Below are positions 11,699-30,358 of a stretch of DNA of 64,000 nucleotides, in pieces; within the stretch, counting starts at the first letter, position 1; each line of letters opens with the position of its first letter. The notes beneath the pieces are model-generated. The model had not been told where the DNA came from, ran no database searches, and saw nothing but the letters and a program-made list of their open reading frames with translations. Origin of the DNA: Sebaldella termitidis ATCC 33386 (GTDB lineage Bacteria > Fusobacteriota > Fusobacteriia > Fusobacteriales > Leptotrichiaceae); the NCBI RefSeq assembly GCF_000024405.1, contig NC_013517.1, positions 2,542,001 to 2,606,000 on the forward strand. The letters run 5' to 3'. The translations under genes were made by a program, and so were the position numbers.

Positions 11699-12589
11699 TT
11701 ATTTTATTTCGTCAATATTAATTTTTTTAAGATAATCAGAAACCATTTCTTTTAATTCATCATGTCTTAAAGCCATTTCTACAGTTGCTTTAAACATACC
11801 GAATTTATCTCCGGTATCATATCTTATCCCCTCATAATCATACGCATATAATTTATGACCGTCGTTTTTCATTTTAAAAATAGCATCAGTTAATTGAATT
11901 TCCCCGCCTTTTCCCGGCTTTGTTTCTTTCAGGTACTTGAATATTTCAGGTTCCAAAACATATCTTCCCAAAGCTGCAAGTCTGCTTGGCGCTTCATTTA
12001 TATCAGGTTTTTCTATAAATCCTTTTACTTCCACAGTTCTGTCATCTATCTTTTTCAAAGGATCAACAATACCATATTTATTTACTTCTGTTTCAGGCAC
12101 TTCCTGAACCCCTAATATATTACCTTTTCCCAGTTCCTTATGCTTATCCACCAGCTGTTTAGTAGCTGGATAAATAGGATTGTGAATAATATCATCTCCT
12201 AATACCACCACAAACGGCTCATCTCCAATGAAGCTCTCTGCACAGCCTATTGCATGTCCCAGACCTAAAGGCTGTTTTTGTCTAACGTAATAGATGTTGG
12301 CCATGTTTGATATTCTTTGAACCATTTTTAAAAAATCCTGTTTTCCCGTCTCTTCCAGTGTTTTTTCCAGTTCATATGAATAATCAAAATGATTTTCTAT
12401 TGAAGTCTTATTTCTGCCAGTCACTATTAATATTTCTTCTATTCCGGAATCAACAAGTTCTTCCACTAAATACTGAAGAGCAGGTTTATCCACAATTACC
12501 AGCATTTCCTTAGGCTGGGCTTTTGTCGCCGGCAATACTCTTGTTCCTAATCCTGCTGCCGGAATTACTGCTTTTCTTATTTTTTTCAT
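11699..12589 (-). CDS. galU: UTP--glucose-1-phosphate uridylyltransferase
   Basis: A 296-residue enzyme making UDP-glucose from UTP and glucose 1-phosphate, feeding the surface glycan and the GalE-like epimerase. The N-terminal RKAVIPAAGLGTRVLPATKAQPKEML signature (seen around 4-30) is the GalU/RmlA nucleotide-binding loop, followed by VDKPALQYLVEE, GLGHAIGCA and VLGDDI. FIEKP near 190 and GGEIQLTDAI near 230 are GalU-specific. AGGAGG precedes the ATG. It has its own promoter and terminator, so it is a single-gene unit. Confidence 0.96.
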   Translation of the reverse strand: MKKIRKAVIPAAGLGTRVLPATKAQPKEMLVIVDKPALQYLVEELVDSGIEEILIVTGRNKTSIENHFDYSYELEKTLEETGKQDFLKMVQRISNMANIYYVRQKQPLGLGHAIGCAESFIGDEPFVVVLGDDIIHNPIYPATKQLVDKHKELGKGNILGVQEVPETEVNKYGIVDPLKKIDDRTVEVKGFIEKPDINEAPSRLAALGRYVLEPEIFKYLKETKPGKGGEIQLTDAIFKMKNDGHKLYAYDYEGIRYDTGDKFGMFKATVEMALRHDELKEMVSDYLKKINIDEIK

Positions 12590-12656
12590 TTGTTCCTCCT
12601 AGATTATTTTTCTATATATGTTTAACTCTTTATTCATATAAAAGATATCTGTAAGC

Positions 12657-12685
12657 ATTATAGCATAAATATTTCTTTTTATCAT
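12657..12685 (-). promoter_or_regulatory. Probable promoter of galU
   Basis: Minus-strand -10 TATAAT (12657-12662) with a 17-base spacer to a weak -35 ATGATA (12680-12685). It lies about 70 bases before the galU ATG and just after the rmlB terminator, the expected place for a separate promoter. Confidence 0.5.
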
Positions 12686-12696
12686 AATTTTATACT

Positions 12697-12720
12697 AAAA
12701 AAGAGAATTTCCATTCTCTT
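12697..12720 (-). terminator. Intrinsic terminator of the rml/glycan operon
   Basis: On the minus strand, three bases after the rmlB stop: AAGAGAAT, a four-base loop GGAA, ATTCTCTT, then TTTT. This eight-pair stem with T-run closes the long minus-strand unit that ends with rmlB. Confidence 0.75.
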
Positions 12721-12723
12721 TTA

Positions 12724-13920
12724 TTATTTATTTTCATACATTTTCTCATAATATTTTTGATAATCTCCTGATATTACTTCCTCTACCCATTTTTGATTAT
12801 CAAGATACCAGATTATTGTCTTTCTTATGCCATCTTCAAATTTTGTTTCAGGATACCATCCAAGTTCATTCACTATTTTAGTTGGATCAATGGCATATCT
12901 TCTGTCATGACCTAGTCTATCCTGAACATAAGTGATTAAATTATAATTTATATTTTCCCATTTTGTTTTCAATATATTTTTATATTCTGCATTCTTCCCA
13001 GTAAGCTCTTTTATGATATCAATAACTAATTTCACTATTCTTATATTCTGTTCTTCATTAAAACCGCCTACATTATAAATTTCTCCTGCTTTCCCATTTC
13101 TAAGGACAATGTCTATGGCTTTACAATGATCTTCTACATACAGCCAGTCTCTTACATTTTTTCCGTCCCCATATACTGGTAAGGCTTTTCCTTCAAGAAC
13201 ATTTTTTATCATCAGGGGAATTAATTTTTCCGGAAAATGAAAAGGACCGTAATTATTTGAGCATCTTGTTATATTTACAGGCATTTTATATGTTTCAGCA
13301 TAAGCTAATACTATAAAATCAGCTCCTGCTTTAGATGCAGAATACGGGCTTCTCGGATCTAAAGAAGTTTTCTCTGTAAAAAACTCTTTTCCATATGTTT
13401 GCAATTTTCTGTCAGAAGCTATTTTTCCTGCAATTTCAGATGGTATTTCCAGATTTTGCGGTTCTTCAAAATCTTTTGCCAGTGAACCATAAACTTCATC
13501 AGTAGATATCTGTAAAAACTTTACTCCTTCTTTATATATCGGATAGCCGTTTTTATCTTCTCCTGTTCTCCATGCTGCCTTAGCACATTCCATCAAATTC
13601 TGGGTTCCAAGAATATTAGTTTCCAAAAATATCTGTGGATTCTCTATTGATCTGTCCACATGTGATTCAGCTGCAAAATTCACTATATAATCAATATTAT
13701 ATTTACTTATTAGCTCTTTCACCAGAACCGGATCTTTAATATTTCCTTTTTCAAAATTTACTCTTTTATCTTGAATATTTTCTTTTATAGTACCTAAATT
13801 TCCTGCATATGTCAGTTCATCCAGAACTATTACTTTTATATTCTTATATAGTCTAAGCACATATTTTAAATAGTTTGAACCTATAAAACCTGCTGCTCCC
13901 GTTATTAGATAAGTTTTCAT
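12724..13920 (-). CDS. rfbB: dTDP-glucose 4,6-dehydratase (RmlB)
   Basis: A 398-residue NAD-dependent SDR enzyme, the second step of dTDP-L-rhamnose synthesis. TGAAGFIGSN (7-16), HVDRSI, STDEVYGSL and the catalytic YSASK are present, and DRLGHDRRYAID near residue 335 is the RmlB-specific tail motif. It is longer than the E. coli enzyme because of an insertion after VYGSL (about 170-200) and extra residues before the tail motif; similar insertions occur in clostridial RmlB. Its ATG overlaps the rmlD stop by one base. Last gene of the locus, followed by a terminator. Confidence 0.95.
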   Translation of the reverse strand: MKTYLITGAAGFIGSNYLKYVLRLYKNIKVIVLDELTYAGNLGTIKENIQDKRVNFEKGNIKDPVLVKELISKYNIDYIVNFAAESHVDRSIENPQIFLETNILGTQNLMECAKAAWRTGEDKNGYPIYKEGVKFLQISTDEVYGSLAKDFEEPQNLEIPSEIAGKIASDRKLQTYGKEFFTEKTSLDPRSPYSASKAGADFIVLAYAETYKMPVNITRCSNNYGPFHFPEKLIPLMIKNVLEGKALPVYGDGKNVRDWLYVEDHCKAIDIVLRNGKAGEIYNVGGFNEEQNIRIVKLVIDIIKELTGKNAEYKNILKTKWENINYNLITYVQDRLGHDRRYAIDPTKIVNELGWYPETKFEDGIRKTIIWYLDNQKWVEEVISGDYQKYYEKMYENK

Positions 13921-14780
13921 TATAATTCTCCCTTTTCTTTCATCTCTTGTAAAAATCTATCTATTGCATCTTTCCAATCTGGAATTTTTTTCCCTAGCAA
14001 TTTTTCGGTTTTTTCAGATGAGAGTTTTGTATATTCTGCTCTTGCAGCCGGTAGCTTAAAATCCTTTGTTTTAGCAGTCTCCAATTTACCATTCCACCCT
14101 ATTTTTTCCAAAACATACTTAGCTTGCTCAAATTTACTGCATTCACCAGAATTACTTATATGATATAATCCAAATTTACCAGTTTTAATTAGCTCCCAAG
14201 AAAATTCTGCTAAATCTTTTGAGTAAGTAGGAACAGAAACTTGATCATCTACAATATTTAATTTGTTTTTAGCTTTGCTCCAGTTTATAACCTGTTTGTT
14301 AAAATTGTTATTTGCTATCCCAAAAACCCATGAAGTTCTGATTACATATGATTTTTCATATGCATTTAAAACATCTGACTCACCCTTGTATTTAGACTTT
14401 CCATACACTGACAGCGGATTTGGAGTATCTTTTTCTGTATAAGGACTTTTTCTTTCTCCATCAAAGACAAAATCTGTGGAGTATGTCATAAATACTGCTC
14501 CTGTTTTTTTACATATTTCTGCTAATTTAGTCGGAGCTTCAGAATTAAGTAGGTAACATTTTTCTTTATCAGTTTCTGCTTTATCTACATCATTATAGGC
14601 AGCACAGTTTATTATAATATCAAAGTTTTTATTTTCATTAAAAAATTTTTCCAGCTTATTATCATTTGTAATATCCAGTTCATTATAATCAGTTGCATAG
14701 TATTCCACTTCCAGTTTATCAAACAGATTCTGAAAATCATAGCCTAATTGTCCATTTGATCCTGTTAATAATATTTTCAT
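13920..14780 (-). CDS. rfbD: dTDP-4-dehydrorhamnose reductase (RmlD)
   Basis: A 286-residue NAD(P)H-dependent reductase, the last step to dTDP-L-rhamnose. The start ILLTGSNGQLGYDF, NCAAYNDVDKAE, STDFVFDG, and YGKSKYKGE with the catalytic Tyr and Lys are typical RmlD motifs. It lies between rmlC (14-base gap) and rmlB (one-base overlap), consistent with one coupled transcript. Length matches the family. Confidence 0.95.
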   Translation of the reverse strand: MKILLTGSNGQLGYDFQNLFDKLEVEYYATDYNELDITNDNKLEKFFNENKNFDIIINCAAYNDVDKAETDKEKCYLLNSEAPTKLAEICKKTGAVFMTYSTDFVFDGERKSPYTEKDTPNPLSVYGKSKYKGESDVLNAYEKSYVIRTSWVFGIANNNFNKQVINWSKAKNKLNIVDDQVSVPTYSKDLAEFSWELIKTGKFGLYHISNSGECSKFEQAKYVLEKIGWNGKLETAKTKDFKLPAARAEYTKLSSEKTEKLLGKKIPDWKDAIDRFLQEMKEKGEL

Positions 14781-14794
14781 AATCAGTCTCCTTT

Positions 14795-15364
14795 TTAAAA
14801 ATAGTACTTTTCATAATCAAATTTTTCTAAATTTTTATCTTTATCCGAAATAACTAATTCATTGATCAATATTCCATAATCACTAATTGGCCACTCTATT
14901 TTTAAAATATCATCATTCCAAAAAATTCCAGAATCATATTCAGGATAGTAAAAATCAGTACATTTATATTGAAATTCTGTTTCATCTTCTAATGTCAAAA
15001 AACCATGTGCAAATCCTTCAGGAACATAAAACATTTTTTTGTTTTTTTCGTTCAATTCAAGACCATACCATTTGCCAAAAGTAGGACTTTCTGTTCTTAA
15101 ATCTACTGCGACATCCCAAACCGCCCCCTTTGTTACTCTTACCAATTTTCCCTGAGAATGTTTACTCTGATAATGTAATCCTCTTAAAACTCCTTTTTTA
15201 GATTTTGAATGATTATCCTGAATAAATTCCATTTTTAAACCTAACTTTTCAAAATGGTTCTTATTATAACTTTCTAAAAAAAAGCCTCTCTCATCTTCAA
15301 AAACTAGTGGTTCTATTATTACTAAATCTGCTATCCCTGTTTCTATAATTTTAAAATTTGACAA
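14795..15364 (-). CDS. rfbC: dTDP-4-dehydrorhamnose 3,5-epimerase (RmlC)
   Basis: A 189-residue cupin-fold epimerase, third step of dTDP-L-rhamnose synthesis. DERGFFLESYN (23-33), QDNHSKSKKGVLRGLHYQ with the catalytic His in LRGLHYQ, VRVTKGAVWDVAVDLR, and YVPEGFAHGF are all present. Starts with TTG, chosen because AAGGTGA lies just upstream and no ATG fits. It follows the arylsulfotransferase gene with a 73-base gap. Confidence 0.95.
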   Translation of the reverse strand: MSNFKIIETGIADLVIIEPLVFEDERGFFLESYNKNHFEKLGLKMEFIQDNHSKSKKGVLRGLHYQSKHSQGKLVRVTKGAVWDVAVDLRTESPTFGKWYGLELNEKNKKMFYVPEGFAHGFLTLEDETEFQYKCTDFYYPEYDSGIFWNDDILKIEWPISDYGILINELVISDKDKNLEKFDYEKYYF

Positions 15365-15437: not shown

Positions 15438-18400
15438 TCAAAAATTCCATATTAAATTTTTAGGATTTAATTCAAAATGATTTACTCTATATGAGTTAGA
15501 TATATATGCCTTATCATATAACTTTACGATTAGCACTTCTTCTCCATTCCTAATTTCTGATATAACTGTTTCACTTTTTGAAGTTGGTGAAAAAACCTTA
15601 GATACATCACCTGTAATTTTACCATTCGAATCTATTACTATCCCACCGAAATTTATTAAATAGTAATCATTATCAAGCACCTCTATATTTCCTATATAAG
15701 GAGTAAAAGTACTATTCCCGTTTTCTTTTCCATATTCCCAGACTTTACTTACTTTCATGTCAGATTCATCAATTCTGAAGATAACCCCTCTTGAATAGTT
15801 CGTTTCTTCTGAAATACCATGTCTAAAATTTCCATTATCATATACATATAATAATCCATCTATCAATTTTACTCCATGTTGTCCGTATGCATAATCAAAA
15901 TCTGAAGAATTAGGTTTTAATATCTTATTTGTCAGATCCCTTTTTTCGTTCCATTCATATTTTTCTCCGCCAAATATCCATTTTACTTCTGAACTATTAT
16001 AATCTATTGCTATTACTGCATTTTGGTGTCTGCTTGATATGATTAAATAGTTTGTATCCTTATCATACCAGACTGCATTCTGATGAAACCAGTCTTCTTT
16101 ATATTTACTTACTATTTTTTCTTCCAGAACTTTATTTTCTTTTTCTTTATTTGTCATTAAGTCATAATTGATATATTCGGGTCTTGCAATTTTTTCTTTA
16201 ATATTAAAAATTTCTTTCATATTCCATCTTTTTACTACTCTGCCAGTTTCTCTGTTAATTTCTACCATATAATCTTCTAAATCTCCATCTGGATTATTTA
16301 TTAAAGCAATATAGTTTTTGTTTGGTAATTCAACAATATCATGATGTACTCCGTCTACATCGTATTCTTTATGAACTTTTCCCATTATATTTAATTCATA
16401 AAAACCGCTTTTATAATAAGGTGGTCTCGTCATCTCATTATTTATTGCCAGAAAGCGGTCATTTTCCAGCTGAGTAATAGGACTTGTTCCTCCGATACCA
16501 TCCTTAATATACCATCTCACATCTCCATTTAAATCGATCGCATACATCCCTGAAAATGATGAAATAAATAAAAATCCTTTTTTTAATTTTTCTTGATCTT
16601 TCTTCAAAATTTTTACTTTGGGCATATCTATTTCCACTTTATCTGTTTTTATCTTTATTTTTTTTCTTATTTTTTTCCCGTGTTCATCATAAGCTGAAAT
16701 AAATACAATATTTTTTTTATCAGGATATAAGCCATATACTGGTATTATATGAAGATTATTATAACCCTCTAATTTATATTTCAAAGTTCCCTCTTTATTT
16801 TTACCTGGAATCTCTATTTCAATATTCATTTTTGAATCTGTTTTAAATAATATTAACGCTGTTAAAGGGGATAATCCGTATGGATCCTTTACTATCATAG
16901 GATCGTCAAGAGTGTATACTTTCTTTTCAAAGTCTTTTTTTATATTTTCTTCTATTTTTTTTTGCTTTTTTATTAATTTAGTATTGTCTATACTGTTTAA
17001 AGCTAAATAATAATCTGTTTTATATTCTTTTTCTATATCTCCATATACCACTTTTACAGCTACTTTATATTTTCCTGGTGGTAGATTTGTCAAAGATATC
17101 CAGTCATTAAAACCTGACTTGCTATAATTTTTATTATTCCCCAATACTTTATTAAAAACTTCTGTTACATCTCCTCTTATAGTATTATTTAATTGTACAC
17201 TGTAACTTCTATCTTCATTATATAAAACCAAATATTTTTTAACAGTATCTGAATTATATTCTTCTAAAAAGGCCCATCCATCTATGGACAATGACTTACT
17301 TTCAATATCCAAAGATATTTTATCTATGCAGGCATGTTCTGTCTCAGGTAAAATTCTTTTATTTTTATCCTCTTCTAAAATTTCCTCTTTATTTAAATAT
17401 ACTTTTGCCTCAGCTTGTAAGTTTTCAGTTTCATAATTTTCCGGATATATGAACATTCTGTCTATTCTATAAACACTTGTCATATCGCTAAATTTAAGTT
17501 CTACTTCATATGCTACTTCAGAATCAGGATAAGTTACTTCTACAATTCTTGGTGAATTTAACCCTTTAGCAAAATTAACATCATTTACCAAACTACCAAA
17601 TGATATAAGTCTGTTCCCAGTTTTAGGAAGATAGTTTGCATCTCCTACAGAAGCTGAAAATAAATCTTTTCCTCTTACTTTTCCATATTCCCAAATTTGT
17701 GTTACAGTCATTTCTTTTTCATTTATTCTATACTGCACAGCTCGACTGTAATTTTTTATATTTGGTACACCACGTCCATTTCCGTTATCGAACAGTAAAA
17801 TATCAATAGTGTCTACATTATTATCAAAATCTGGAAGTTCTTCTTGTGAATGCTGTCCATATTGCCACTCAAAAAATCCTTCAGTCTCTATTGGTGTTAA
17901 TAAATAATTTCTATAACTGTCATTCCATTGGTCATGTATCCCCAAAATCCATTTTAATTCTAATTCTGGATAACTCATTTTAATAACTGCACTTTGATGC
18001 CTTCCCGAAAGAGTTATACCATCTTTATGCTCATATATTGCATTTAAGTGAAACCAATCATCAAAACTTGCACCAAAAAAATCTTGTTTAAAAAGTTTTT
18101 TATTTATATATCTATTCTGATCTAATACAGTTTTTAAATCTATCTTTTTTATAATTTTTCCACTATTTCGTGATAATTCTATTAACGAGTCTTCAGATCC
18201 ATTTTCATCCAGAGTTGTTATAAGGAAATTTCCATTTTCCATTTCCAAAATATCATGATGGATATTTTCTGATGCGATTGAATAAATGTTATATATCTTT
18301 CCTAATAAATCTAATTCTAAAAATTTATTTTTCACTTCTGAATTCATAATTATATTTCCATTTCTAAGTCTTTTAAATATCAAATTTGATTTATAATTAG

Positions 18401-19388
18401 TATACCATCTTATATCTCCATTACTATCTATAATTGAATTATTATGTTTTCCCACTGTAGATAGAAATGTAAATCCCGGCTCCATTTTTTCAGGTTTTGA
18501 CTGAACTAAATTTATAGTATAAAAATTTTCTGGTAATTCTTCTGTTTGAATGTAAATCTCTTTTGTTAACTTTTTTCCGGATTTATCTTCTAAATACAAA
18601 ATCACCTTATTATTTTTCCCAGCGTAAAGACCATAAACAGGAATCTCATGGTGTTTTTTATATTTTTTAAAATCATATCTTACTGATGTTGGTCCATCTT
18701 TCCCTTCAATGAATATCTCTATTTTAGTATCTTCTCCTGTATCAAACATTACCAGTGCTGTTAACGGCGCAAAATTATACGGATCCAATAGTATTAAAGG
18801 ACTTTCAATGTCATAATGTTTATTTCTATATTCTTTTATTTTTGTTTCATTTGTAAAACTTTCTTCGTATTCTATATTTGTATTAGCTAAATCAAAGAAA
18901 TTATCTTCATAGATTACTTCCTTTATCTCCTCAAAAGTTTGGGCATGACCTTTATAAACAAGCTGTGTACTTTGAGGATCTAGCTTTATATCTTTATCAA
19001 TTTCAAAAATAAGCGTTCCGTCACCTAAACCATTTTCTGAACCAAAAAAAGGTTTATACCCATATACTGAAAGAAATGCTATATTTTCTAGTGCCAAAAA
19101 TTCCTTTTCGTTTGTTCTTAATTTAAAATCCTTAATTTTTATTTTTTCTTTACTGCCTGTATTTACTGATATATCTACTAAAACAAACTTATTATTTTGT
19201 TTTGGTAGTTTTATATTATACTCTTCTTTTGATTCACCGCCATAAATTGTAATAATATTAGTTTTCTCTAGTTTCTCCTCTTCTTTATAACTTAAAATAT
19301 TTAATTCTGCTGCTGTTGATAATTCTCTACTTAAATCACAAGAAACCAATAAAACAATTGAACATAGTAATATGATAATTTTCTTCAT
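15438..19388 (-). CDS. assT: Lipoprotein with two tandem arylsulfate sulfotransferase (AssT) domains
   Basis: A 1316-residue secreted lipoprotein: signal peptide with lipobox LVSC (lipid Cys17). It holds two full AssT units, each an Ig-like DPY...PLTAL...IPVYGLY segment (from 202 and 835) then a beta-propeller. All four catalytic positions known from E. coli AssT occur in both: HHD (377-378; 1015-1016), DWFH (447; 1102), SxRHQ (Arg463; Arg1120) and GQH, the nucleophile (513; 1171). The family moves sulfate from a phenolic sulfate to another phenol, without PAPS. Between them lies a spacer with a separate beta-rich segment (about 690-800). I see only one other Cys (687), so the DsbL-type disulfide of the E. 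coli enzyme is absent. Start chosen at base 19388 because an upstream in-frame ATG (19487) has no signal peptide and spans the likely promoter. Substrate unknown. Confidence 0.88.
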   Translation of the reverse strand: MKKIIILLCSIVLLVSCDLSRELSTAAELNILSYKEEEKLEKTNIITIYGGESKEEYNIKLPKQNNKFVLVDISVNTGSKEKIKIKDFKLRTNEKEFLALENIAFLSVYGYKPFFGSENGLGDGTLIFEIDKDIKLDPQSTQLVYKGHAQTFEEIKEVIYEDNFFDLANTNIEYEESFTNETKIKEYRNKHYDIESPLILLDPYNFAPLTALVMFDTGEDTKIEIFIEGKDGPTSVRYDFKKYKKHHEIPVYGLYAGKNNKVILYLEDKSGKKLTKEIYIQTEELPENFYTINLVQSKPEKMEPGFTFLSTVGKHNNSIIDSNGDIRWYTNYKSNLIFKRLRNGNIIMNSEVKNKFLELDLLGKIYNIYSIASENIHHDILEMENGNFLITTLDENGSEDSLIELSRNSGKIIKKIDLKTVLDQNRYINKKLFKQDFFGASFDDWFHLNAIYEHKDGITLSGRHQSAVIKMSYPELELKWILGIHDQWNDSYRNYLLTPIETEGFFEWQYGQHSQEELPDFDNNVDTIDILLFDNGNGRGVPNIKNYSRAVQYRINEKEMTVTQIWEYGKVRGKDLFSASVGDANYLPKTGNRLISFGSLVNDVNFAKGLNSPRIVEVTYPDSEVAYEVELKFSDMTSVYRIDRMFIYPENYETENLQAEAKVYLNKEEILEEDKNKRILPETEHACIDKISLDIESKSLSIDGWAFLEEYNSDTVKKYLVLYNEDRSYSVQLNNTIRGDVTEVFNKVLGNNKNYSKSGFNDWISLTNLPPGKYKVAVKVVYGDIEKEYKTDYYLALNSIDNTKLIKKQKKIEENIKKDFEKKVYTLDDPMIVKDPYGLSPLTALILFKTDSKMNIEIEIPGKNKEGTLKYKLEGYNNLHIIPVYGLYPDKKNIVFISAYDEHGKKIRKKIKIKTDKVEIDMPKVKILKKDQEKLKKGFLFISSFSGMYAIDLNGDVRWYIKDGIGGTSPITQLENDRFLAINNEMTRPPYYKSGFYELNIMGKVHKEYDVDGVHHDIVELPNKNYIALINNPDGDLEDYMVEINRETGRVVKRWNMKEIFNIKEKIARPEYINYDLMTNKEKENKVLEEKIVSKYKEDWFHQNAVWYDKDTNYLIISSRHQNAVIAIDYNSSEVKWIFGGEKYEWNEKRDLTNKILKPNSSDFDYAYGQHGVKLIDGLLYVYDNGNFRHGISEETNYSRGVIFRIDESDMKVSKVWEYGKENGNSTFTPYIGNIEVLDNDYYLINFGGIVIDSNGKITGDVSKVFSPTSKSETVISEIRNGEEVLIVKLYDKAYISNSYRVNHFELNPKNLIWNF

Positions 19389-19472: not shown

Positions 19473-19621
19473 AAAATGATCATGCATAAATTTATTAAGT
19501 CTATTTGAGTTTAATATTTTAATTTTATAATCTAATTTTTGTCTTTACCAAATTATTGAATATTTATAAAAATATCCTAATTTATTTTTTAAAATTCCTT
19601 TATCAATTTTTATTTTGACAT

Positions 19622-20518
19622 TTATCCTTTAAACATTAAAAAAATCTGTTTTTTTATATTCATATATATATTATTCTTATGTAACAAATAAAATCTGATA
19701 AACCTGCTTTTTTTAGTATTTGTAATAAGAAAATATGTTTCTAATAATTTCTTTTTTTCTTTTTCAATCTCATCTCCATATTTTAAATATAGTTTATACA
19801 ATAAATTTCTATCCCGTATTTCAAAATATCTTTTGTTTAATATTTTTTTTATTATATTTGATTTAGTACCTATTTGATTATTATTATGCTGGCGATAATA
19901 CATTAAGGATTCATCCAAAAAATATCTTTTTCCTAATAGCTCTGCTAACAGATGTAAATATCTGTCATGCAGATAAACCTCATCCAAAAATGGGATACAT
20001 ATTTCCTTCATTTTGTTATTTATAATTATAGAAGCTCCTTGTACAATAAAAGAAAATAAAAACGTATTAGCTTTATTTTCTATAGATTTAATGAATTTTT
20101 TTTTAATTATTTTCAATCTATAATTGCATACACTTGAATTGCAATGTACTAATAGTGGAATTTCTTTATTTTCTTTAATAATTACATTATAAAGTTTTTC
20201 AATTTTTGTTTTATCCCAAAAATCATCTTGATCAGCAAACATTATATAATCAGCCTTAGAATGTTTTAATAACTGTTCAAAATTTTTGACAAACCCTAAA
20301 TTTTTTTTATTATCTTCTATCAATCTAATTCTATTATCCAATTTCAAGTACTCATCTATTATCGTTCTCGTCTGATCGTTTGAACAGTCATCTCTTATTA
20401 TAAGTTGCCAATTTTGATAAGTCTGACCGATTATTGAATCAATTTGTTCCTTTATATATTTTTCTCCATTATATGTTGCCATTAATATATCTATTTTTTT
20501 ATCATCTGTATTTAGCAT
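19622..20518 (-). CDS. Family 2 glycosyltransferase, rhamnosyltransferase-like
   Basis: A 298-residue GT-A enzyme: ILMATYNGEKYIKEQIDSI start, DDCS (43-46) and DQDD (96-99). The phrase FADQDDFWD with a following HCNSSVCNY-type segment is common in bacterial rhamnosyltransferases of GT2. The C-terminus is Lys-rich. A dTDP-rhamnose donor is plausible because the rml genes are in the locus, but it is not proven. GAAGGT precedes the ATG. Local base composition is even more AT-rich than the flanking genes, a sign of possible transfer. Confidence 0.87.
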   Translation of the reverse strand: MLNTDDKKIDILMATYNGEKYIKEQIDSIIGQTYQNWQLIIRDDCSNDQTRTIIDEYLKLDNRIRLIEDNKKNLGFVKNFEQLLKHSKADYIMFADQDDFWDKTKIEKLYNVIIKENKEIPLLVHCNSSVCNYRLKIIKKKFIKSIENKANTFLFSFIVQGASIIINNKMKEICIPFLDEVYLHDRYLHLLAELLGKRYFLDESLMYYRQHNNNQIGTKSNIIKKILNKRYFEIRDRNLLYKLYLKYGDEIEKEKKKLLETYFLITNTKKSRFIRFYLLHKNNIYMNIKKQIFLMFKG

Positions 20519-20787
20519 TTTAGACCTTCTATATTTTTATAATTAAAATTTTACAACATTAAAATCAATATTTTTTTATATTTTAAAAAAATGAAATAAA
20601 ATTATAATTCAGAGTAATTCTATTTTGATGCTTTATTGCCTGAATTCTTATCTTCAAATAAAAAAAATGTTACAGTAATTTATGTACAAATTCCAAAATA
20701 TAAAATATTTTTACTTGTTAATTATATTATTTCCCAGTCCCCCCTTTAGTTTTTGAGAAATGTCATTCTATTACTTTTTTTTATTTT

Positions 20788-21369
20788 TTAATAATTTTCA
20801 GGAAATAAAACTCTCTCTACACCTTCAATTATAATATGTAAAATAATCATATGTACTTCCTGAATTCTGTCAGAAGTTTCACCAGGAATTATAAATTCAT
20901 AATCGCACATCCCTTTTAGTTCCCCGCCATCTTTACCTAATAAAGCAACTGTTTTCAACTGTTTATTTTTAGCAACTTTAACTGCCTCAATTATATTTTT
21001 AGAATTTCCAGAAGTTGAAATACCAAAGAAAAAATCACCACTTTCACCAAAAGCTTCTATCCCTTTAGAAAATATAAAGTCAAAACCATAATCATTAGCA
21101 ACACATGTTATATGTGATGAATCACTTATACTTAATGAAGGCAGCGCTTTTCTCTCTTTTCTAAATCTTCCGGTAAATTCCTCGGCAAAATGCATTGCAT
21201 CACAATTACTTCCTCCATTACCTGCTATAAGTGATTTCTTTCCTTTATTGTACGCCTCTGCAAGCTCTTTTGATATCTGAGCAGTTTTTAAAATGTTTTC
21301 CTCATTTTCAACAAAGTTTTTTATTGTTTCATACGCAGTAAGAAACGAGTTTTTTATCTCTCTTTCCAT
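20788..21369 (-). CDS. gmhA: Sedoheptulose-7-phosphate isomerase (GmhA)
   Basis: A 193-residue SIS-domain enzyme converting sedoheptulose 7-phosphate to D-glycero-D-manno-heptose 7-phosphate, the first step of nucleotide-heptose synthesis. GNGGSNCDAMHFAEEF (around residues 49-64) and GISTSGNSKNI are diagnostic; His in the IQEVHM helix is the conserved catalytic His. The start at 21369 is preferred over an in-frame ATG 36 bases upstream, because AAAGGTG lies about seven bases before it and the length then equals E. coli GmhA. The next step is encoded by the adjacent kinase gene. Confidence 0.93.
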   Translation of the reverse strand: MEREIKNSFLTAYETIKNFVENEENILKTAQISKELAEAYNKGKKSLIAGNGGSNCDAMHFAEEFTGRFRKERKALPSLSISDSSHITCVANDYGFDFIFSKGIEAFGESGDFFFGISTSGNSKNIIEAVKVAKNKQLKTVALLGKDGGELKGMCDYEFIIPGETSDRIQEVHMIILHIIIEGVERVLFPENY

Positions 21370-21391
21370 ATTCCACACCTTTCTATAATTT

Positions 21392-22372
21392 TTACATATC
21401 TTCATAAAATTTAATTATTTCTTCTTTTGTAGTAGTTGCCGTTCCTATTTTCCCTACAACTATCCCAGCTGCTATATTTCCAATTTTAGCTGCTTCAAGA
21501 CTTGTTGCTCCAGCTGCAAGTGCAAGTGTGAATACTGAAATTAATGTATCTCCGGCTCCTGTTACATCATAGACTTCCTTTGCCATTGTCGATACTTTAT
21601 TATAATTTTCACTGCAAATAGAGACTCCTTCTTCGCTTCTTGTTAATAATAAATATTTCAAATCCAAGTCTTCTTTTATTTTCATTGCTTTATTTTCTAT
21701 ATCAGATTCGTCAGTAAAACTGTTTAATCCCAGATATTCTAGTATTTCTTTTTTATTAGGAGTGATTGCAGTTGCACCAACATAATTAATAAAATTTTTA
21801 GGCTTCGGATCTACAGTAATAATTTTATTATTTTTTCTGGCTATCTCTATGATCTTTTTTGATACATATTCTGATAGTACTCCCTTGTTATAATCTGACA
21901 GTATAATAGCCTCTATGTTTTTTATGTTTTTTTCCAGTCTATCAATTATGTCTTTCTGTATTCTTTCATTAATAACTTCATTTTTCTCCCAGTCTATTCT
22001 GAGTAATTGATTATTATGGGCTAAAATTCTGGTTTTTATTATTGTTGGTCTTTCACTGTCTATCACAAGACCCGAAACTTCTATTCCTGTCTCTTCCAAT
22101 TTTTTTATTAATTTCTGTCCATTCTCATCATCACCTATAACACCATATGTGATAACCTGACTATTTAAATTTCTCAGGTTATTTGAAACATTGGCTGCTC
22201 CTCCTAGAACAAACCTTTCTTTATTGACATTTACCACTGGTACAGGTGCCTCTGGTGATATTCTTGTTACATCTCCCAATAAATATGAATCAATCATCAT
22301 ATCACCAACAACTGCTATTTTTAAATTTTTAAATTTTTCTATAAGCTCTACGACTCTTTCTACTTTTAACAT
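21392..22372 (-). CDS. rfaE1: D-glycero-D-manno-heptose-7-phosphate kinase (HldE N-domain type, RfaE1)
   Basis: A 326-residue PfkB/ribokinase-fold kinase that phosphorylates heptose 7-phosphate at C1. VVGDMMIDSYLLGDV (21 onward), RISPEAPVPVV (38-47), GGAANVSNN (57-65) and the anion-hole/catalytic DVTGAGDT (269-276, Asp275 as base) match the HldE kinase domain. The C-terminal nucleotidyltransferase domain of E. coli HldE is missing, so a separate gene must supply it, as must GmhB; neither is in the window. Whether the product becomes ADP- or GDP-heptose cannot be told, because the two routes use different anomers. Confidence 0.93.
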   Translation of the reverse strand: MLKVERVVELIEKFKNLKIAVVGDMMIDSYLLGDVTRISPEAPVPVVNVNKERFVLGGAANVSNNLRNLNSQVITYGVIGDDENGQKLIKKLEETGIEVSGLVIDSERPTIIKTRILAHNNQLLRIDWEKNEVINERIQKDIIDRLEKNIKNIEAIILSDYNKGVLSEYVSKKIIEIARKNNKIITVDPKPKNFINYVGATAITPNKKEILEYLGLNSFTDESDIENKAMKIKEDLDLKYLLLTRSEEGVSICSENYNKVSTMAKEVYDVTGAGDTLISVFTLALAAGATSLEAAKIGNIAAGIVVGKIGTATTTKEEIIKFYEDM

Positions 22373-22399
22373 TTCACTCCTTAATGATCATTAATATAC

Positions 22400-25300
22400 C
22401 TAACCAATTACTCCTTTTATTTTTTGTTCATTAAGCTCATAACCAATACAAGATTTATGACTATACTTGCATTTTAATGAATGGCAGGGTGAACAATCTA
22501 CTATTGTATCTAAAATTATATTTTTTTCATTTTGATTAGTTAAAAATTTCTTTATATTAACATCTCTGGCTCTTGTTGACCCATATAAGGTAATCTGTTT
22601 TATTCCAAGAATAGCACCTAAATGCGACGTCCATGAATCTATGCCTATTAATGCTTCCGATTGTTCAAATATAGATCTCCATTGACTCAGGGAATAATTT
22701 TCCAATATCCATCCATCTAATTTTTCTACTTTTTTATCATTTTTTCCACCGATTTGGATTAACTTTACATTCTCTTTCTTACATATCTCAATCAGTTTAT
22801 GTATCATTTTACTAGGAATACTCTTTAAATTCCAGCCACCAAACGGATGTAACAATACTATCTTCCCATCTCCAAACTTTTCTAGTATCTCCTTTGCTTT
22901 TCTGACCACTTCATCATCTACAGATGGCTTCAATGGTTCTATCTTTGTATCAATAGATATTTCTAATTCATTTAACATATGTTCTACTATGTTTAACCCC
23001 ATAAAATCAAAATCCATTTTTGGATGACTTCTTGCTATTTTCCCAGAAAAATCTTTTCTTTTTTCTACAAAGTTTACTGCTTTTTCAAAATAATTCATTG
23101 TTTCATGAGCTTGTGGTATACCTATCGGTATTTCCAATACTTCAAAATTTGGTGAAAAATCTCTTACCCAGTCTACAAGTTTTTCAGATACATGAAATCT
23201 TACTTTTTTTCCAATTGAAACACAATAATTAGCAACTTGTATACCTATTAGTACATCACCTCTATGAAATGGACATACAAATTCTATATAATCTCTCCAT
23301 GGCTTAGTTTTTCTTGGTGAGAAAGAATACGTTACATCCTCATTTTCCAATGATAAATTAACACTGTAATACGGATCATATTTTAATTTTTCCCCATATC
23401 GGCTTATCATTTCTCTTCTTTCGTTCCTGTTCAATTCTTTCTTATACTTACTTTCGTCCTTACCGCGACTTATAGATTCTAAGTGATATAACTCAACTTC
23501 CGGATTAAATATTATTTTATAACCTTTATCTCTAACTTTTAAACAAAGATCCACATCATTATAACTTACTTTCAATTTTTCCTCGTCAAAACCATTTACT
23601 TCTTCAAATATCTTTTTTGATATCGCAAGACATGCTCCTGTTACCGCAGAGACATTATGTATTAGACCTAATCTTCCAAAATATCCAGGTGAGTTTTTAG
23701 GTAAATGTTTATGAATATGTCCAGCAACACCATAAACTCCTGTAACACATCCAGCATGTTGTATTGTATTATTGCTATAATATAATTTAGCACCCACTAT
23801 TCCGACATTTTCTTCTGAAAAAGTGGAAATCATTTCTTTAAGCCAGTCATTCTTTATAATCTCTAAATCATTATTCATAAAGACTAAATACTCACCTTTA
23901 GCCTCTTTTACTGCCAAATTATTTAATTTAGAATAGTTAAATTCTCCTTCTACCTTTAATATTTTTATTCTGGAATCTGCTGATATTTTATCAAAATACT
24001 CTAAAGTTTTCTTTTCTTTACTATCATTATCTACAATAATAACTTCAAAGTCATCATAATCTGTATTTTTTTGTAATCCGTCCACACAATTTTTTAGTAT
24101 TTCTACTCTGTCTCTTGTTGGAATTATCAGTGATACTTTAGGTAAAATAGTTTTTTGTTGTCTTTTTATTTTCCAGCAACCCGGAAAATTATCTACCGGA
24201 AGAATACGAACATCTTCTTTTAATATTTCATAATGTTCTTTCAGTGCTTTATATGCTGAATCATCTGAAATATTATGATTATCTGTAGAAAAAGTATGAT
24301 TTCCTTTAAAAATTCTCCAATGGTATAAGACATGAGGTATATGTGAAATTCTGTCAGAAGAAATTTCTCTTAAAAACCTAAGTAATATATCATAATCCTG
24401 ACTACCCTCAAAACCTTTTCTAAATCCGCCAATTTTTTTCAAAATTGAAGTTCTGTAGATTCCCAGGTGAGCAACAAAATTTTGTGAATTTATTAAGGTT
24501 TCATTCCATTCCATCTTGAAGTAAGGATCATATCTTATATTTTCTCCATCTATTTTATCTTCATCAGTATAAATTAGATCTACCAATCCCTTTTTTCTAT
24601 TTATTTCCCACACAACCATATATAATGCATGTTTAGGAATTAAATCATCATGGTCCATTAACGCTGTAAATTCTCCAGTTACTAATTCCAGTGCCGAATT
24701 ACTTGCAAGAGAAATATGACCATTTTCTTTCCTATATATAACTTTTATTCTGCTGTCTTTATTTTCATATTCTTTAAGTATTTCTCTTACTTCTTCGTTA
24801 GGCGAATTATCATCTGCTATACATAATTCCCAATTGTCATAAGTTTGTTCAATTACTGAATCTAGTGCTTGTTTCAAAAAATGTATATCTGTATTATATA
24901 CCGGCATTAACACAGAAATTAAAGGTTTATACTGAAAATTTTCTATACTCTCTTTCATTTCAAATATATCTTCAATAGATAATTCATCATAAAGCTCAAC
25001 CCATTTCTGATACATATCTTCATTATTAGTAATTTTAGGATTAATTGAAAAAACTATTTTTTCCTTTACTCCTGATATTCCATAATATTTATAAGTTTCA
25101 AAACCTTTTTTTATAATATAACTAAATTTTATGTCTTTGCTTTTAGCTGTTTTATATGCTGTTTTTACTATACGAAGTCTTCTATAATTTCTCACTAAAA
25201 AAGTATCAGGAGCTCCAAGTCTCCCTTCATGTTTTCCATGACTCATGTAATGCTCATAAGGATCCCCACCACTTTCAAAAACATCCGGATTATTTTTCAA

Positions 25301-26404
25301 ATACCAGTTCTTTTTAAATCTTTCTTTATTTCCTCTGATACCTTTACCGTGTATTATATTTTCAAGAGCTCTGACTCCCCGGCTGAACTTCCATGATCTT
25401 GATAAGTATACCCTATTTAGTTGATTCCTCAGTTCTTCATTTTCTCTGTTAATTTTTTTGAAATCATCTTTTATAATTTCTAAATCATTTAATTTTTTAG
25501 TTAAAATCTTTAATTTTTTAGTTAAAATCTTTAATTCTTTTTTTATAAGATTTTTTTCTTCACTTTGTGAATTAACATCAGATTCCAGTCTTTGTCTAAG
25601 ACTTTGTAATTCTTCTAAAGTTCTTTCGTCTCCTCTTATTCTTTTTTCCAAACTTTTTGCATATTCTACTTCCTGCTTTAGATTTTCTTCAAGTATCTCC
25701 CTTTCTGCTACTATTCTTAAATCATTCGCAAGTTTTTCAAAAAAAGAATTAAATAATTTAAATTTTTCATTTTCTCCGTTATTTTCACAAAGTTCAAGCA
25801 AATATTCATTTCTATTTTCACCAACTAATAAAACTCCTAAACCATGCCAAAATTTAAATTCAAATCCCGGATATTTTTTTAATATTTCTTCCCAAAATTT
25901 ATAAACTCCAAAATCTTTTTTTTTCTCAAATGTGTCATGGAAAATAACAACTCCCCTATCTGACAGCTTTGGAAACCACACTTCAAAATCATGTTTTACA
26001 GCTTCATATGTATGAAGTCCGTCTATATGTAATAAATCTACTGAACCATTTTCAAAGCTTTCAGCAGCTTCATCAAATGTCATTTTTTTTAAAAAAGTAA
26101 ACTCTGGATAATTTTCATCAATATAATCTTTTAATTCAATATATATCTCATCGCCATAATAACCGGCCTGATGGTCACCACTCCAAGTATCCACCGCATA
26201 CGCTTTCGTCTGCAAATTATTCTCCAGAATAGATTGACTAAAAGTTAAAAATGACATTCCTTTATGAGTCCCCAATTCAACAAATACTTTTGGATTTAAT
26301 TCTGTTATTAACCAAGAACCAAAGGGCACATGACCTATCCATGAACTTCCTCTAAAATCTAATTTTTTAGGCTTTATAAAAGCTGAAGTATTTTTTATTT
26401 CCAT
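22400..26404 (-). CDS. Four-module glycosyltransferase: methyltransferase-like + coiled coil + GT2 + GT2 + GT9
   Basis: A 1334-residue cytoplasmic protein. Module 1 (about 20-195) is a class I SAM-methyltransferase-like domain (FVELGTHKGMSF at 41-52, HIDGLHTY at 126-133). Then a heptad-rich coiled coil (about 230-335) and a WYLKNNPDV...YEHYMSHGKHEGR segment (367-395) common in polysaccharide enzymes. Module 2 is a GT2 domain (495-745; ADDNS, DHDD 584-587). Module 3 is a second GT2 (755-1005; VDNDS, NND 844-846). Module 4 (1040-1330) resembles GT9 heptosyltransferases (HPFGGW...IPSKM, IGIDSW, TLYGSTRARD). Three transferases on one chain could add successive sugars, perhaps including heptose given the adjacent gmhA and heptose kinase genes. 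RBS is weak; 3-base gap from wzt. Confidence 0.87.
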   Translation of the reverse strand: MEIKNTSAFIKPKKLDFRGSSWIGHVPFGSWLITELNPKVFVELGTHKGMSFLTFSQSILENNLQTKAYAVDTWSGDHQAGYYGDEIYIELKDYIDENYPEFTFLKKMTFDEAAESFENGSVDLLHIDGLHTYEAVKHDFEVWFPKLSDRGVVIFHDTFEKKKDFGVYKFWEEILKKYPGFEFKFWHGLGVLLVGENRNEYLLELCENNGENEKFKLFNSFFEKLANDLRIVAEREILEENLKQEVEYAKSLEKRIRGDERTLEELQSLRQRLESDVNSQSEEKNLIKKELKILTKKLKILTKKLNDLEIIKDDFKKINRENEELRNQLNRVYLSRSWKFSRGVRALENIIHGKGIRGNKERFKKNWYLKNNPDVFESGGDPYEHYMSHGKHEGRLGAPDTFLVRNYRRLRIVKTAYKTAKSKDIKFSYIIKKGFETYKYYGISGVKEKIVFSINPKITNNEDMYQKWVELYDELSIEDIFEMKESIENFQYKPLISVLMPVYNTDIHFLKQALDSVIEQTYDNWELCIADDNSPNEEVREILKEYENKDSRIKVIYRKENGHISLASNSALELVTGEFTALMDHDDLIPKHALYMVVWEINRKKGLVDLIYTDEDKIDGENIRYDPYFKMEWNETLINSQNFVAHLGIYRTSILKKIGGFRKGFEGSQDYDILLRFLREISSDRISHIPHVLYHWRIFKGNHTFSTDNHNISDDSAYKALKEHYEILKEDVRILPVDNFPGCWKIKRQQKTILPKVSLIIPTRDRVEILKNCVDGLQKNTDYDDFEVIIVDNDSKEKKTLEYFDKISADSRIKILKVEGEFNYSKLNNLAVKEAKGEYLVFMNNDLEIIKNDWLKEMISTFSEENVGIVGAKLYYSNNTIQHAGCVTGVYGVAGHIHKHLPKNSPGYFGRLGLIHNVSAVTGACLAISKKIFEEVNGFDEEKLKVSYNDVDLCLKVRDKGYKIIFNPEVELYHLESISRGKDESKYKKELNRNERREMISRYGEKLKYDPYYSVNLSLENEDVTYSFSPRKTKPWRDYIEFVCPFHRGDVLIGIQVANYCVSIGKKVRFHVSEKLVDWVRDFSPNFEVLEIPIGIPQAHETMNYFEKAVNFVEKRKDFSGKIARSHPKMDFDFMGLNIVEHMLNELEISIDTKIEPLKPSVDDEVVRKAKEILEKFGDGKIVLLHPFGGWNLKSIPSKMIHKLIEICKKENVKLIQIGGKNDKKVEKLDGWILENYSLSQWRSIFEQSEALIGIDSWTSHLGAILGIKQITLYGSTRARDVNIKKFLTNQNEKNIILDTIVDCSPCHSLKCKYSHKSCIGYELNEQKIKGVIG
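25488..25537. repeat. 21-base tandem repeat inside the coiled coil
   Basis: Two exact copies of a 21-base unit (25488-25508 and 25509-25529) and eight bases of a third. On the coding strand each copy encodes KILTKKL, one heptad, in the coiled coil of the multi-module glycosyltransferase. The unit length keeps both reading frame and heptad register. Confidence 0.85.
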
Positions 26405-26407
26405 TTA

Positions 26408-27655
26408 TTAATCTCCTAACGAATTTCCTAGTCTACTATCTTCAGACCATTTATGCGGTATCATAAATGTTCCTTCACCATCATAGTTACTCTCTATCAT
26501 AAATTCCTTCACTTTTGAGATATATTGAATTGGAACTGTTGCTGTTGATTCAAACAATGCACAATCAAAATAGTACATCCCTCCAAATACTAATACTCCC
26601 ATCTCATATGTTAAATAATATTTATTTTCCCCTTTTTTCCAAGGAATTTCTTTTTTATCCAACAATGTATTTAAACCACATATATATTTATTATCTATGC
26701 TCTTTATTGCGACTCCTAAAACCGGATCTTCTATATCTTCATCGTATACTTCATATGTGACTTCTACTTTTAGAACATCGTATTTTCTAAATTTTTCTTT
26801 TTCAATTCCATCAATGCTAAGCATTTTAAAACTTTTTATCTCCGCTATATTTCTGACATTAATTTCCTCTATATTTTTTTCAATTTCTTCTTGAGTTTCC
26901 ATTCCTTGAGTAGCCTCTTCAAATTTCAAAAAGTCTAAATATCTGTCTGTTACATAGTTAATATCTCCGTCCAACTCTACCTTTCCATCTTTTAGCCATA
27001 CTGCCCTAGTACAAAAACGTTTTATCGTATTTATATCATGCGAAACAAACAGTATAGTTACCCCTTTTTTCATCATTTCTTTCATTTTAGTTATACATTT
27101 CATTTGAAATCTCATATCACCAACAGCTAGTATTTCATCAACTATCAATATATCCGGATTAACATTAATCGAACACGAGAAAGCCAGACGAGCAAACATT
27201 CCGCTTGAATACACTTTTACAGGCTGTTCAATAAAATCCCCTATATCTGCAAATTTTATAATATCCGATATTTTATTATTCATTTCTTCTTTAGAGTATC
27301 CCATTAATGTTCCATATAAATATATATTTTCACGTCCTGTATATTCCGGATTAAAACCTGCTCCAAGCTCTATCAAAGCTGATATTTTCCCTTCTATATC
27401 CAAAGTTCCTGAACTTTGAGTCAATACTCCAGTTATCACTTTTAGTAATGTAGATTTCCCAGCGCCGTTTTTACCCAATAATCCGACAATTTCTCCTTTT
27501 CTAACAGATAAATTTATATTATTTAATGCATAAAAATCTTTATGATATTTCTTTTTTTTTAAAAAAAAATTAAGTGCTTCCTTTAATCTATCCTTTTTAT
27601 TATCATATAATTTATAAATTTTATTGAGCTCTTTCACTTCTATAATATTACTCAT
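26408..27655 (-). CDS. wzt: Polysaccharide ABC exporter, ATP-binding subunit (Wzt)
   Basis: A 415-residue ATPase of the O-antigen/teichoic-acid export class. Walker A GKNGAGKST (61-69), the signature YSSGM (149-153), Walker B ILIVDE (169-174) and the switch His206 are present. The C-terminal extension (about 250-415) is a Wzt_C-type beta-sandwich that in known systems binds the end-modified glycan and so sets export specificity. It partners the permease just upstream (gap 79 bases). A run of nine A next to nine T (27552-27569) lies in codons 29-36. Confidence 0.93.
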   Translation of the reverse strand: MSNIIEVKELNKIYKLYDNKKDRLKEALNFFLKKKKYHKDFYALNNINLSVRKGEIVGLLGKNGAGKSTLLKVITGVLTQSSGTLDIEGKISALIELGAGFNPEYTGRENIYLYGTLMGYSKEEMNNKISDIIKFADIGDFIEQPVKVYSSGMFARLAFSCSINVNPDILIVDEILAVGDMRFQMKCITKMKEMMKKGVTILFVSHDINTIKRFCTRAVWLKDGKVELDGDINYVTDRYLDFLKFEEATQGMETQEEIEKNIEEINVRNIAEIKSFKMLSIDGIEKEKFRKYDVLKVEVTYEVYDEDIEDPVLGVAIKSIDNKYICGLNTLLDKKEIPWKKGENKYYLTYEMGVLVFGGMYYFDCALFESTATVPIQYISKVKEFMIESNYDGEGTFMIPHKWSEDSRLGNSLGD

Positions 27656-27734
27656 TTTTAGTTATGGTGTTCTAAAATTACCACCACAGTCTCCTTCCCT
27701 AATTTATCCTTCTATCCTATAGTATTTTTCAAAA

Positions 27735-28553
27735 CTACAACACGTCATTAAAATGTGGTTTTAACTTTCTAAATATTATAGCTCCTGATATAAAGATTAT
27801 TGAACTTATAAAAAAGAAGACTAATGTCCAATTAGGTTTTTCCCAAAACCATATTTTATAAATAAAACTATCCCTATATCCTTGTATTATATAAAAAATT
27901 GGATTAATTTTAAAAATCCACACCATTTTTTCAGGTATCATTTTAAAAGACCAAAATATTGGAGTTATCCAAAATCCAAGCTGTAATATAACTGCTATAA
28001 TTTCGCCAACATCTGGAAGAAAAACTTTTATTCCACCAAATAGCCATGAAAGCCCTATTAATAAATAGCATGTACAAAACAAATAATAAATTATCTGCAA
28101 GACATGAAAATCTATATTAAAACCACTGACTAATGACACTATAAAAATTATAAAAATGAAAAATATATGTGTGAAAATACCTGATATTATTTTTATAAAA
28201 GGAAGTATTTCTGCTTTAAAAGTCATCTGTCTCAGCATATAACTATACTCAAATAATACATTTGTTCCAGTTGGAAAAACCTCTGAAAAAAAATACCACG
28301 GAACCAGTCCACATATAAGCCAAAGAATAAAAGGAATTCCAGGTTCTGTATCACCTGTTCTAAAACCAACAGAAAATACAAACCACATTACACCTATATT
28401 TATCATTGGTTGGATATAGGACCAAAATAATCCTAAATAAGATTTAGAATATCTTTGTTTAAAATCATTTATTCCTAATAGTAATATCAATTTTTTTTGA
28501 ACCCAAATATATTTAAAAAATTCATATATAGTAGCCTTTTGTTTATTTATCAT
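27735..28553 (-). CDS. wzm: Polysaccharide ABC exporter, permease subunit (Wzm/TagG-like)
   Basis: A 272-residue ABC-2-type permease with six hydrophobic segments. The start FKYIWVQKKLILLLGINDFKQRYSKSYLGLFWSYIQP, with the amphipathic helix before the first membrane span and RYSKSYLG, is typical of Wzm/TagG/RfbD exporters. It forms the channel for the lipid-linked glycan with Wzt. The start at base 28553 is chosen because AGGA lies 11 bases before it; the ATG four codons upstream (28565) has AGG directly touching it, which cannot serve as a ribosome binding site. Confidence 0.92.
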   Translation of the reverse strand: MINKQKATIYEFFKYIWVQKKLILLLGINDFKQRYSKSYLGLFWSYIQPMINIGVMWFVFSVGFRTGDTEPGIPFILWLICGLVPWYFFSEVFPTGTNVLFEYSYMLRQMTFKAEILPFIKIISGIFTHIFFIFIIFIVSLVSGFNIDFHVLQIIYYLFCTCYLLIGLSWLFGGIKVFLPDVGEIIAVILQLGFWITPIFWSFKMIPEKMVWIFKINPIFYIIQGYRDSFIYKIWFWEKPNWTLVFFFISSIIFISGAIIFRKLKPHFNDVL

Positions 28554-28577
28554 TTTAAATTCCATCCTAATTTTAGT

Positions 28578-29450
28578 TTATTTATAATTCTGTGAAAGAT
28601 TTTTTAGATATTTCCCATAATTTGTTTTTAACAAAGGTTTAGCTAATTCCAAAACTTCTTTTTTAGTTATCCATTTATTTGTAAATGCTATTTCTTCAAT
28701 ACATGCTATATAAAATCCCTGTCTTTTTTGGATTGTTTCTATAAATGTCGCTGCTTCCAGCAATGATTCATGTGTACCAGTATCCAGCCATGCTGTCCCT
28801 CTCCCTAAATTTGTTACTGTTAATTTATTTTCATATAAATACATTTCGTTAATACTCGTTATTTCCAATTCACCTCTTTCAGAAGGCTTTACTTTTTTAG
28901 CTTTCTCTATTACTGTATTATCATAAAAATATAGACCCGGTATAGCAAAATTAGATTTTGGATTTTTTGGTTTTTCCTCTAAAGAAATAGCATTTCCTGC
29001 TTCATCAAATTCTACTACTCCAAAAGCTTCAGGGTTTTTTACCGGATATCCAAAAATTTTAGCTCCTGATTTCAATTTTGCTGCTTTTTTTACCATTTCT
29101 GACAGACCATGTCCATAAAATATATTATCCCCTAATATTAATGCTACATTATCATCTCCAATAAATTTCTCTCCTATTAAAAATGCTTCTGCTAATCCAT
29201 TAGGACTCTCTTGAACTTGGTAAGAGAACCTCATACCAAACTGGCCCCCATCACCTAACAAAGCTTCAAAAAAAGGTAAATCTCTTTTTGTTGATATAAT
29301 CAAAATATCTTTTATTTCAGCTAGCATTAACACTGATAACGGATAATATATCATTGGTTTGTCATAAATTGGCATTATTTGTTTTGATATTACTTTAGTT
29401 AATGGATACAGTCTTGTTCCTGAACCACCTGCTAATATTATTCCTTTCAT
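28578..29450 (-). CDS. rfbA: Glucose-1-phosphate thymidylyltransferase (RmlA)
   Basis: A 290-residue enzyme making dTDP-glucose, first step of dTDP-L-rhamnose synthesis. [18 protein letters not shown] (1-18) is the nucleotide-binding signature; [27 protein letters not shown] and LEEKP follow, as does [15 protein letters not shown] near 225. Length matches RmlA of E. coli. It is separated from rmlC, rmlD and rmlB by about 13 kb of other glycan genes, so the rhamnose set is split but within one co-directional locus. Confidence 0.96.
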
Positions 29451-29453
29451 AAA

Positions 29454-30278: not shown

Positions 30279-30358
30279 TTATTATCTCCCAACAAATATC
30301 ATTTATTATATCATTATAGAAAAATAATTTCAATATTTAAAGAAAAAGTAAGCATATT

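Follow-up and report, generated by a model that had tools for sequence, protein, structure and literature searches.

The question raised by this locus is what a lipoprotein with two arylsulfate sulfotransferase (AssT) units in a single chain does within a polysaccharide gene cluster of Sebaldella termitidis, and to which molecule it hands its sulfate. The gene lies on the minus strand at 15438..19388 of the window, by which we mean the whole analysed stretch of 64,000 nt (contig NC_013517.1, positions 2,542,001 to 2,606,000). S. termitidis NCTC 11300 is a termite-gut bacterium with a chromosome of 4,418,842 bp and two plasmids (PMC3035275), and a recent review states that most AssTs still have no known natural acceptor or physiological role (PMC13426309). 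With a probability of roughly 0.42, we read the protein as a periplasm-facing, lipid-anchored AssT that is independent of 3'-phosphoadenosine 5'-phosphosulfate (PAPS), with two working sites, the glycan of the surrounding locus as leading acceptor and the two units joined as a covalent dimer.

Two AssT units in one chain

The gene and the parts of its product were located as follows, all on the minus strand:

15438..19388, minus: tandem AssT lipoprotein gene, 1,316 aa (open frame with GAAAGG upstream and a lipobox, two PF05935 and two PF17425 matches)
19338..19388, minus: signal peptide and lipobox, residues 1-17 (MKKIIILLCSIVLLVSC), from the translation; the next residue is Asp
18804..19340, minus: N-terminal region, residues 17-195, weakly DUF4352-like (PF11611, E 0.011, below cut-off)
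18543..18794, minus: immunoglobulin (Ig)-like domain of unit 1, residues 199-282 (PF17425)
17466..18512, minus: six-bladed propeller of unit 1, residues 293-641 (PF05935, 297 bits, profile positions 3-374)
17850..17852, minus: codon of His513, predicted nucleophile of unit 1 (His436 of E. coli AssT, from alignments)
16884..17423, minus: inter-unit region, residues 656-835, beta-sandwich-like, with Cys687 (PF07495 Y_Y_Y, E 6e-5, below cut-off)
16617..16889, minus: Ig-like domain of unit 2, residues about 834-920, limits approximate (second PF17425 stretch and alignment with unit 1)
15576..16616, minus: six-bladed propeller of unit 2, residues 925-1271 (PF05935, 263 bits, profile positions 2-355)
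15876..15878, minus: codon of His1171, predicted nucleophile of unit 2 (His436 of E. coli AssT, from alignments)

The presence of two complete AssT units, as claimed in the original prediction, was borne out by Pfam, which returned two PF05935 stretches (whole-protein E 1.4e-163), both propellers far above the curated cut-off of 24.2 bits, along with two PF17425 stretches (130 bits in all, E 2.7e-38) that place one Ig-like domain before each propeller. The proposed unit limits, residues 202-620 and 835-1316, were roughly right, the Pfam limits of 199-641 and about 834-1271 differing from them somewhat. Aligned over their whole length the units share 32-33% identity (209 bits, E 2e-66), and this divergence together with the finished genome rules out a recent internal duplication or an assembly artefact.

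A comparison of each unit with the E. coli structure had also been proposed, and both predicted models match it closely. The AlphaFold2 models, one per unit and built from only 4 sequences, reached a predicted template modelling score of 0.76 for unit 1 and 0.79 for unit 2. Against E. coli AssT unit 1 gave a VIA Z of 37.0 (3elq; root mean square deviation 2.8, 435 residues) and unit 2 a VIA Z of 33.2 (3elq/3ets; 2.8, 436 residues), with Foldseek E-values of 2.5e-26 and 2.5e-29 for the two models. The second-best structural match was Cpz4, with Z 33 for unit 1 and 30 for unit 2, and unrelated propellers scored about Z 20. At the level of predicted models the AssT fold is thus confirmed in both units.

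In the E. coli enzyme (EcAssT), a homodimer, the nucleophile His436, which forms sulfo-His436, is surrounded by His252, His356, Asn358, Arg374 and Thr501 (PMC13426309). Our alignments place H378, H447, N449, R463 and H513 of unit 1, and H1016, H1102, N1104, R1120 and H1171 of unit 2, at the positions of H252, H356, N358, R374 and H436. The motifs HHD, DWFH, SxRHQ and GQH, previously noted in both units, can indeed be read in the translation of each. The catalytic core therefore looks complete in both units despite some 33% identity, and we infer that both are active. Such conservation is not universal in the family, as the nucleophile His has been lost in several Bacillota AssT-like proteins among 29 aligned relatives (Thr in L065, Asn in L069, Ser in L071), which are probably non-catalytic, and Arg374 has also been lost in some Bacillota relatives. 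It is improbable, in our view, that only one unit is catalytic while the other serves mainly as scaffold, acceptor-binding site or regulator; paired AssTs with damaged sites do exist, as in genome G302 where Asn or Pro replaces Arg374, but here all five equivalents are kept in both units despite 67% divergence.

As EcAssT is a homodimer, the tandem would most simply be, by analogy, a covalent form of the AssT dimer. A sulfate relay, in which unit 1 charges a bound phenol and unit 2 uses this intermediate on a different acceptor, seems very improbable. All that speaks for it is the presence of two different complete active sites in one chain. Against it, no evidence points to a channel or interface, an enzyme with a ping-pong mechanism can do without a second site, and the dimer offers the simpler reason for the arrangement.

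A longer frame from an upstream start at 19487 would add 33 residues; we prefer the ATG at 19388, since both GAAAGGTGATGGAATG and a lipoprotein signal come after it. The lipobox LLVSC (residues 13-17) closes the signal peptide, so the protein is a lipoprotein by sequence and the lipid anchor of the original prediction holds. Cysteines are found at residue 9 in the signal peptide, at residue 17 in the lipobox (LVSC) and at residue 687, only the latter two being in the mature chain. Cys687 is accordingly the single cysteine besides the lipid Cys outside the signal peptide, and since neither unit contains a cysteine pair, the protein would not need a partner of the DsbL/DsbI type, both as anticipated. 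Regarding the N-terminal region, it should be noted that the DUF4352 profile gave only 16.4 bits against a cut-off of 25.9, a weak match.

The polysaccharide locus as a possible source of the acceptor

The neighbouring genes are the following:

19622..20518, minus: glycosyltransferase family 2 (GT2) gene directly upstream (PF00535, E 1.8e-29; 22% GC; 50% amino acid identity to the congener GT2)
14795..15364, minus: rmlC (TIGR01221 and PF00908)
11699..15364, minus: rmlC, rmlD, rmlB and galU downstream (rmlC by profiles, the rest named from sequence; 67-94% identity to the orthologues of the congener)
20788..31642, minus: upstream glycan genes, namely gmhA-like, heptose-7-phosphate kinase, multidomain glycosyltransferase, Wzt, Wzm, rmlA, GT2 and sugar transferase (the gmhA-like gene, kinase, multidomain glycosyltransferase and Wzt by Pfam/NCBIfam; names of rmlA, Wzm, this second GT2 and the sugar transferase taken from translations)

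The AssT gene runs in the same direction as its neighbours, and a scan detected no same-strand terminator-like site in the gaps flanking it on either side. The promoter scan performed at chance level (75 found, 73 expected). The gene had been described as lying between a rhamnosyltransferase and rmlC; the profiles confirm rmlC, while the label rhamnosyltransferase cannot be kept for the GT2, for which no curated model reached its cut-off.

Identity to the congener G001 drops toward the interior of the locus, from galU (94%) through rmlB (89%), rmlD (80%) and rmlC (67%) to GT2 (50%) and Wzm (40%), a gradient characteristic of variable surface-polysaccharide loci. The matching G001 locus lacks the AssT gene, which was also not found in the genomes G001-G003 (G002 and G003 being 86-87% complete). 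It thus both lies within a polysaccharide locus of O-antigen type and varies between relatives, as expected of a locus gene. The dedicated cell-surface sulfation step of the original prediction gains from this as far as the link to the glycan is concerned, given the variable interior and the absence of the gene from the congener, whereas the cell-surface part is unproven, an Asp following the lipid Cys.

Three further observations were made in this region. At 19622-20787, covering the GT2 gene and 269 bases of gap upstream, the GC content is 21-23% against about 30% nearby, which suggests that DNA was recently exchanged here. The chain encoded at 22400-26404 (minus strand; 1,334 aa) combines a methyltransferase domain with two GT2 domains and a GT9-like domain, and the gene at 34170-42137 (minus strand) encodes an autotransporter of 2,655 aa that has a BigA beta-sandwich domain.

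From the position of the AssT gene we take the locus glycan as the leading acceptor candidate, tentatively and at somewhat short of an even chance. Such an acceptor is chemically reasonable because published AssTs sulfate N-acetylglucosamine (GlcNAc), oligosaccharides and the caprazamycin sugar (PMC13426309). In the cycle we propose, each unit would transfer the sulfate of a phenolic sulfate ester to its own His (H513 or H1171) and free the phenol, after which the sulfo-His would give the sulfate to an acceptor hydroxyl, as in the AssT ping-pong cycle. The acceptor would be the glycan produced and exported by the surrounding polysaccharide locus, the AssT gene an optional gene for decorating a surface polysaccharide that varies between relatives, and the tandem a membrane-anchored, covalent form of the AssT dimer.

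Sulfate supply, phenols and points against a glycan acceptor

Profile searches of the organism's own genome (4,486,650 bases, 3 contigs) gave no match to ATP sulfurylase (PF01747) and none to the PAPS-reductase/CysD type (PF01507), so that an adenosine 5'-phosphosulfate (APS)/PAPS reductase was not found, and APS kinase gave only an unconvincing match of 22 bits over 45 residues in a 447-aa frame. The PAPS route therefore looks absent from this genome, and any sulfation would most likely draw on ready-made external sulfate esters as donors. It also follows that any sulfate on the locus glycan would point to the AssT, as no PAPS-making route was found in the organism. The same genome has a sulfite reductase and six sulfatase-family matches despite the lack of detected sulfate-activation genes.

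This setting may be read differently. The main alternative, which we take seriously while leaning away from it, is a two-site AssT for small periplasmic phenols, which would scavenge or trade aryl sulfates of the termite gut for detoxification or sulfur supply, its place in the glycan locus being incidental. Most studied AssTs use phenols (PMC13426309), sulfatase-family genes are present, and the genome, besides having no detected route of sulfate activation, encodes an AssT-thioredoxin fusion next to an NMT1-type importer and a sulfite reductase. As an extension, a carrier phenol could be loaded in the periplasm and taken by the importer to the cytoplasmic fusion protein. What speaks against a purely phenolic role is the location of the tandem gene, which lies between GT2 and rmlC in the variable stretch of the glycan locus and has the same direction.

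Several points weigh against our main reading, with the glycan as acceptor. No sulfate has been demonstrated on any Sebaldella glycan. Synthesis of O-antigens of the ABC-transporter type is completed in the cytoplasm, and the AssT would therefore have to act after export. An Asp after the lipid Cys holds E. coli lipoproteins in the inner membrane; although this rule may not hold in Fusobacteria, the Asp seen here might, by analogy, retain the protein there. The dimer arrangement is likewise drawn from analogy to EcAssT rather than from a model. In the alignments unit 1 has Val at the position of Thr501 and unit 2 has Ile, which is also found there in relatives such as L018; we have not treated Thr501 as family-defining. 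Finally, most of the Bacillota AssT genes looked at do not adjoin glycan genes, which also favours the phenolic role.

We consider it unlikely, though well worth stating, that the protein is a PAPS-independent sulfotransferase dedicated to polysaccharide, a covalent two-site AssT with which a bacterium unable to activate sulfate decorates its surface glycan, drawing on phenolic sulfates of the termite gut. If true, this would be the first natural glycan acceptor for an AssT within the literature searched. The locus glycan is in any case a concrete AssT acceptor to test, and two different complete active sites per chain provide a ready system in which to probe the importance of the AssT dimer. 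The enzyme may perhaps also be useful for making sulfated sugars.

The fusion gene deserves mention in its own right. Located at L092:5046-6848 (C1:535045-536847 of the genome), it encodes an AssT-like protein of about 600 aa with a C-terminal thioredoxin (CxxC) and no signal peptide seen, and its neighbours encode a NIR_SIR sulfite reductase together with an NMT1-type ABC (ATP-binding cassette) importer. Relatives of the fusion (L124-L130), 55-61% conserved, occur in other Fusobacteriota and one Bacillota-group genome, while in G174 the AssT part, at similar identity, stands without a thioredoxin part. The fusion proteins keep the AssT active-site motifs and recur in two gene settings, the second containing a thioredoxin-reductase-like flavoprotein and a sulfate-symporter-like carrier. 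This gene content would be consistent with a PAPS-free reaction in which sulfite is reductively released from sulfate esters. Our literature search found no paper on sulfite release by an AssT-thioredoxin fusion, and this gene beside a sulfite reductase may matter more than the tandem AssT.

Relatives and known systems

The nearest sequences to either unit are single-unit membrane or lipoprotein AssTs from Bacillota and relatives, at 34-39% identity. Further frames with two AssT units were absent from about 620 genomes, comprising 98 Fusobacteriota and the genome groups around L018 and L019 (Bacillota-type), as well as from the plasmids and phages searched, and scans of viral contigs were also empty. 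This search left out other phyla, and a scan of genome contigs, for which the patterns were poor, yielded no more than 3 loci. A 793-aa frame in G617 was rejected as a tandem candidate, being a single unit in an over-long frame. In the literature searched no paper was found on a tandem AssT, or on an AssT acting on a bacterial polysaccharide.

Adjacent AssT gene pairs do exist, in G357, G419 and G302. The pairs of G357 (L084) and G419 (L085) have no signal peptides, being cytoplasmic by sequence, and adjoin thioredoxin or thioredoxin-reductase-like genes and a gene resembling a Na:sulfate symporter or citrate carrier. In one tree unit 1 groups with Enterococcus and G302 sequences (96/90), while the approximately unbiased (AU) test keeps units 1 and 2 as possible sisters (p 0.087 and 0.389); the trees do not decide between sister units and an origin from two lineages. 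A proposed identity of the inter-unit region with the C-terminal domain of Bacillota AssTs was ruled out, similarity being undetectable.

The enzyme family itself is a known one; a two-unit lipoprotein of this architecture within a glycan locus was found nowhere else in the searched genomes. The AssT of E. coli CFT073 (3ELQ, 3ETS, 4P04) shares the Ig-like domain and six-bladed propeller, the five core catalytic residues and export. It differs in being a single unit of 571 residues that forms a homodimer, in its essential disulfide with DsbL/DsbI and in having no lipid anchor in a glycan locus, whereas the Sebaldella protein has two units per chain, a lipobox, additional N-terminal and inter-unit domains and a replaced Thr501. 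AssTs dependent on DsbL/DsbI, such as L116, combine a Cys pair in the unit with adjacent dsbL/dsbI; the Sebaldella protein has neither, as no dsb gene was found among the translations of the genes neighbouring it.

Among Bacillota AssTs, L018, L056 and L093 (Enterococcus raffinosus) have the same motifs at 34-39% identity, and L093 is also a lipoprotein by sequence; each has only one unit, and many Bacillota AssTs have a C-terminal domain unrelated to the inter-unit region. The cluster of G302 (L086:7438-10843) is similar in its order of AssT, 162-aa DUF4352-like lipoprotein and AssT, near sugar transferase, Alg14-like and pyruvyl transferase genes, but the AssTs are separate genes, both altered at Arg374. 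The similarity of its small lipoprotein to the N-terminal region of the tandem protein is weak, 76 of 2000 shuffles scoring as well.

With regard to acceptors, the Cluster II AssTs of Desulfitobacterium hafniense and Hungatella effluvii, of the same family, are reported to sulfate sugars as well as phenols (PMC13426309); they are described as single-unit. Cpz4 of Streptomyces (9KF4/9KF6), although only 19-20% identical in sequence and with a role in antibiotic tailoring, has the same propeller fold and acts on a sugar hydroxyl of caprazamycin.

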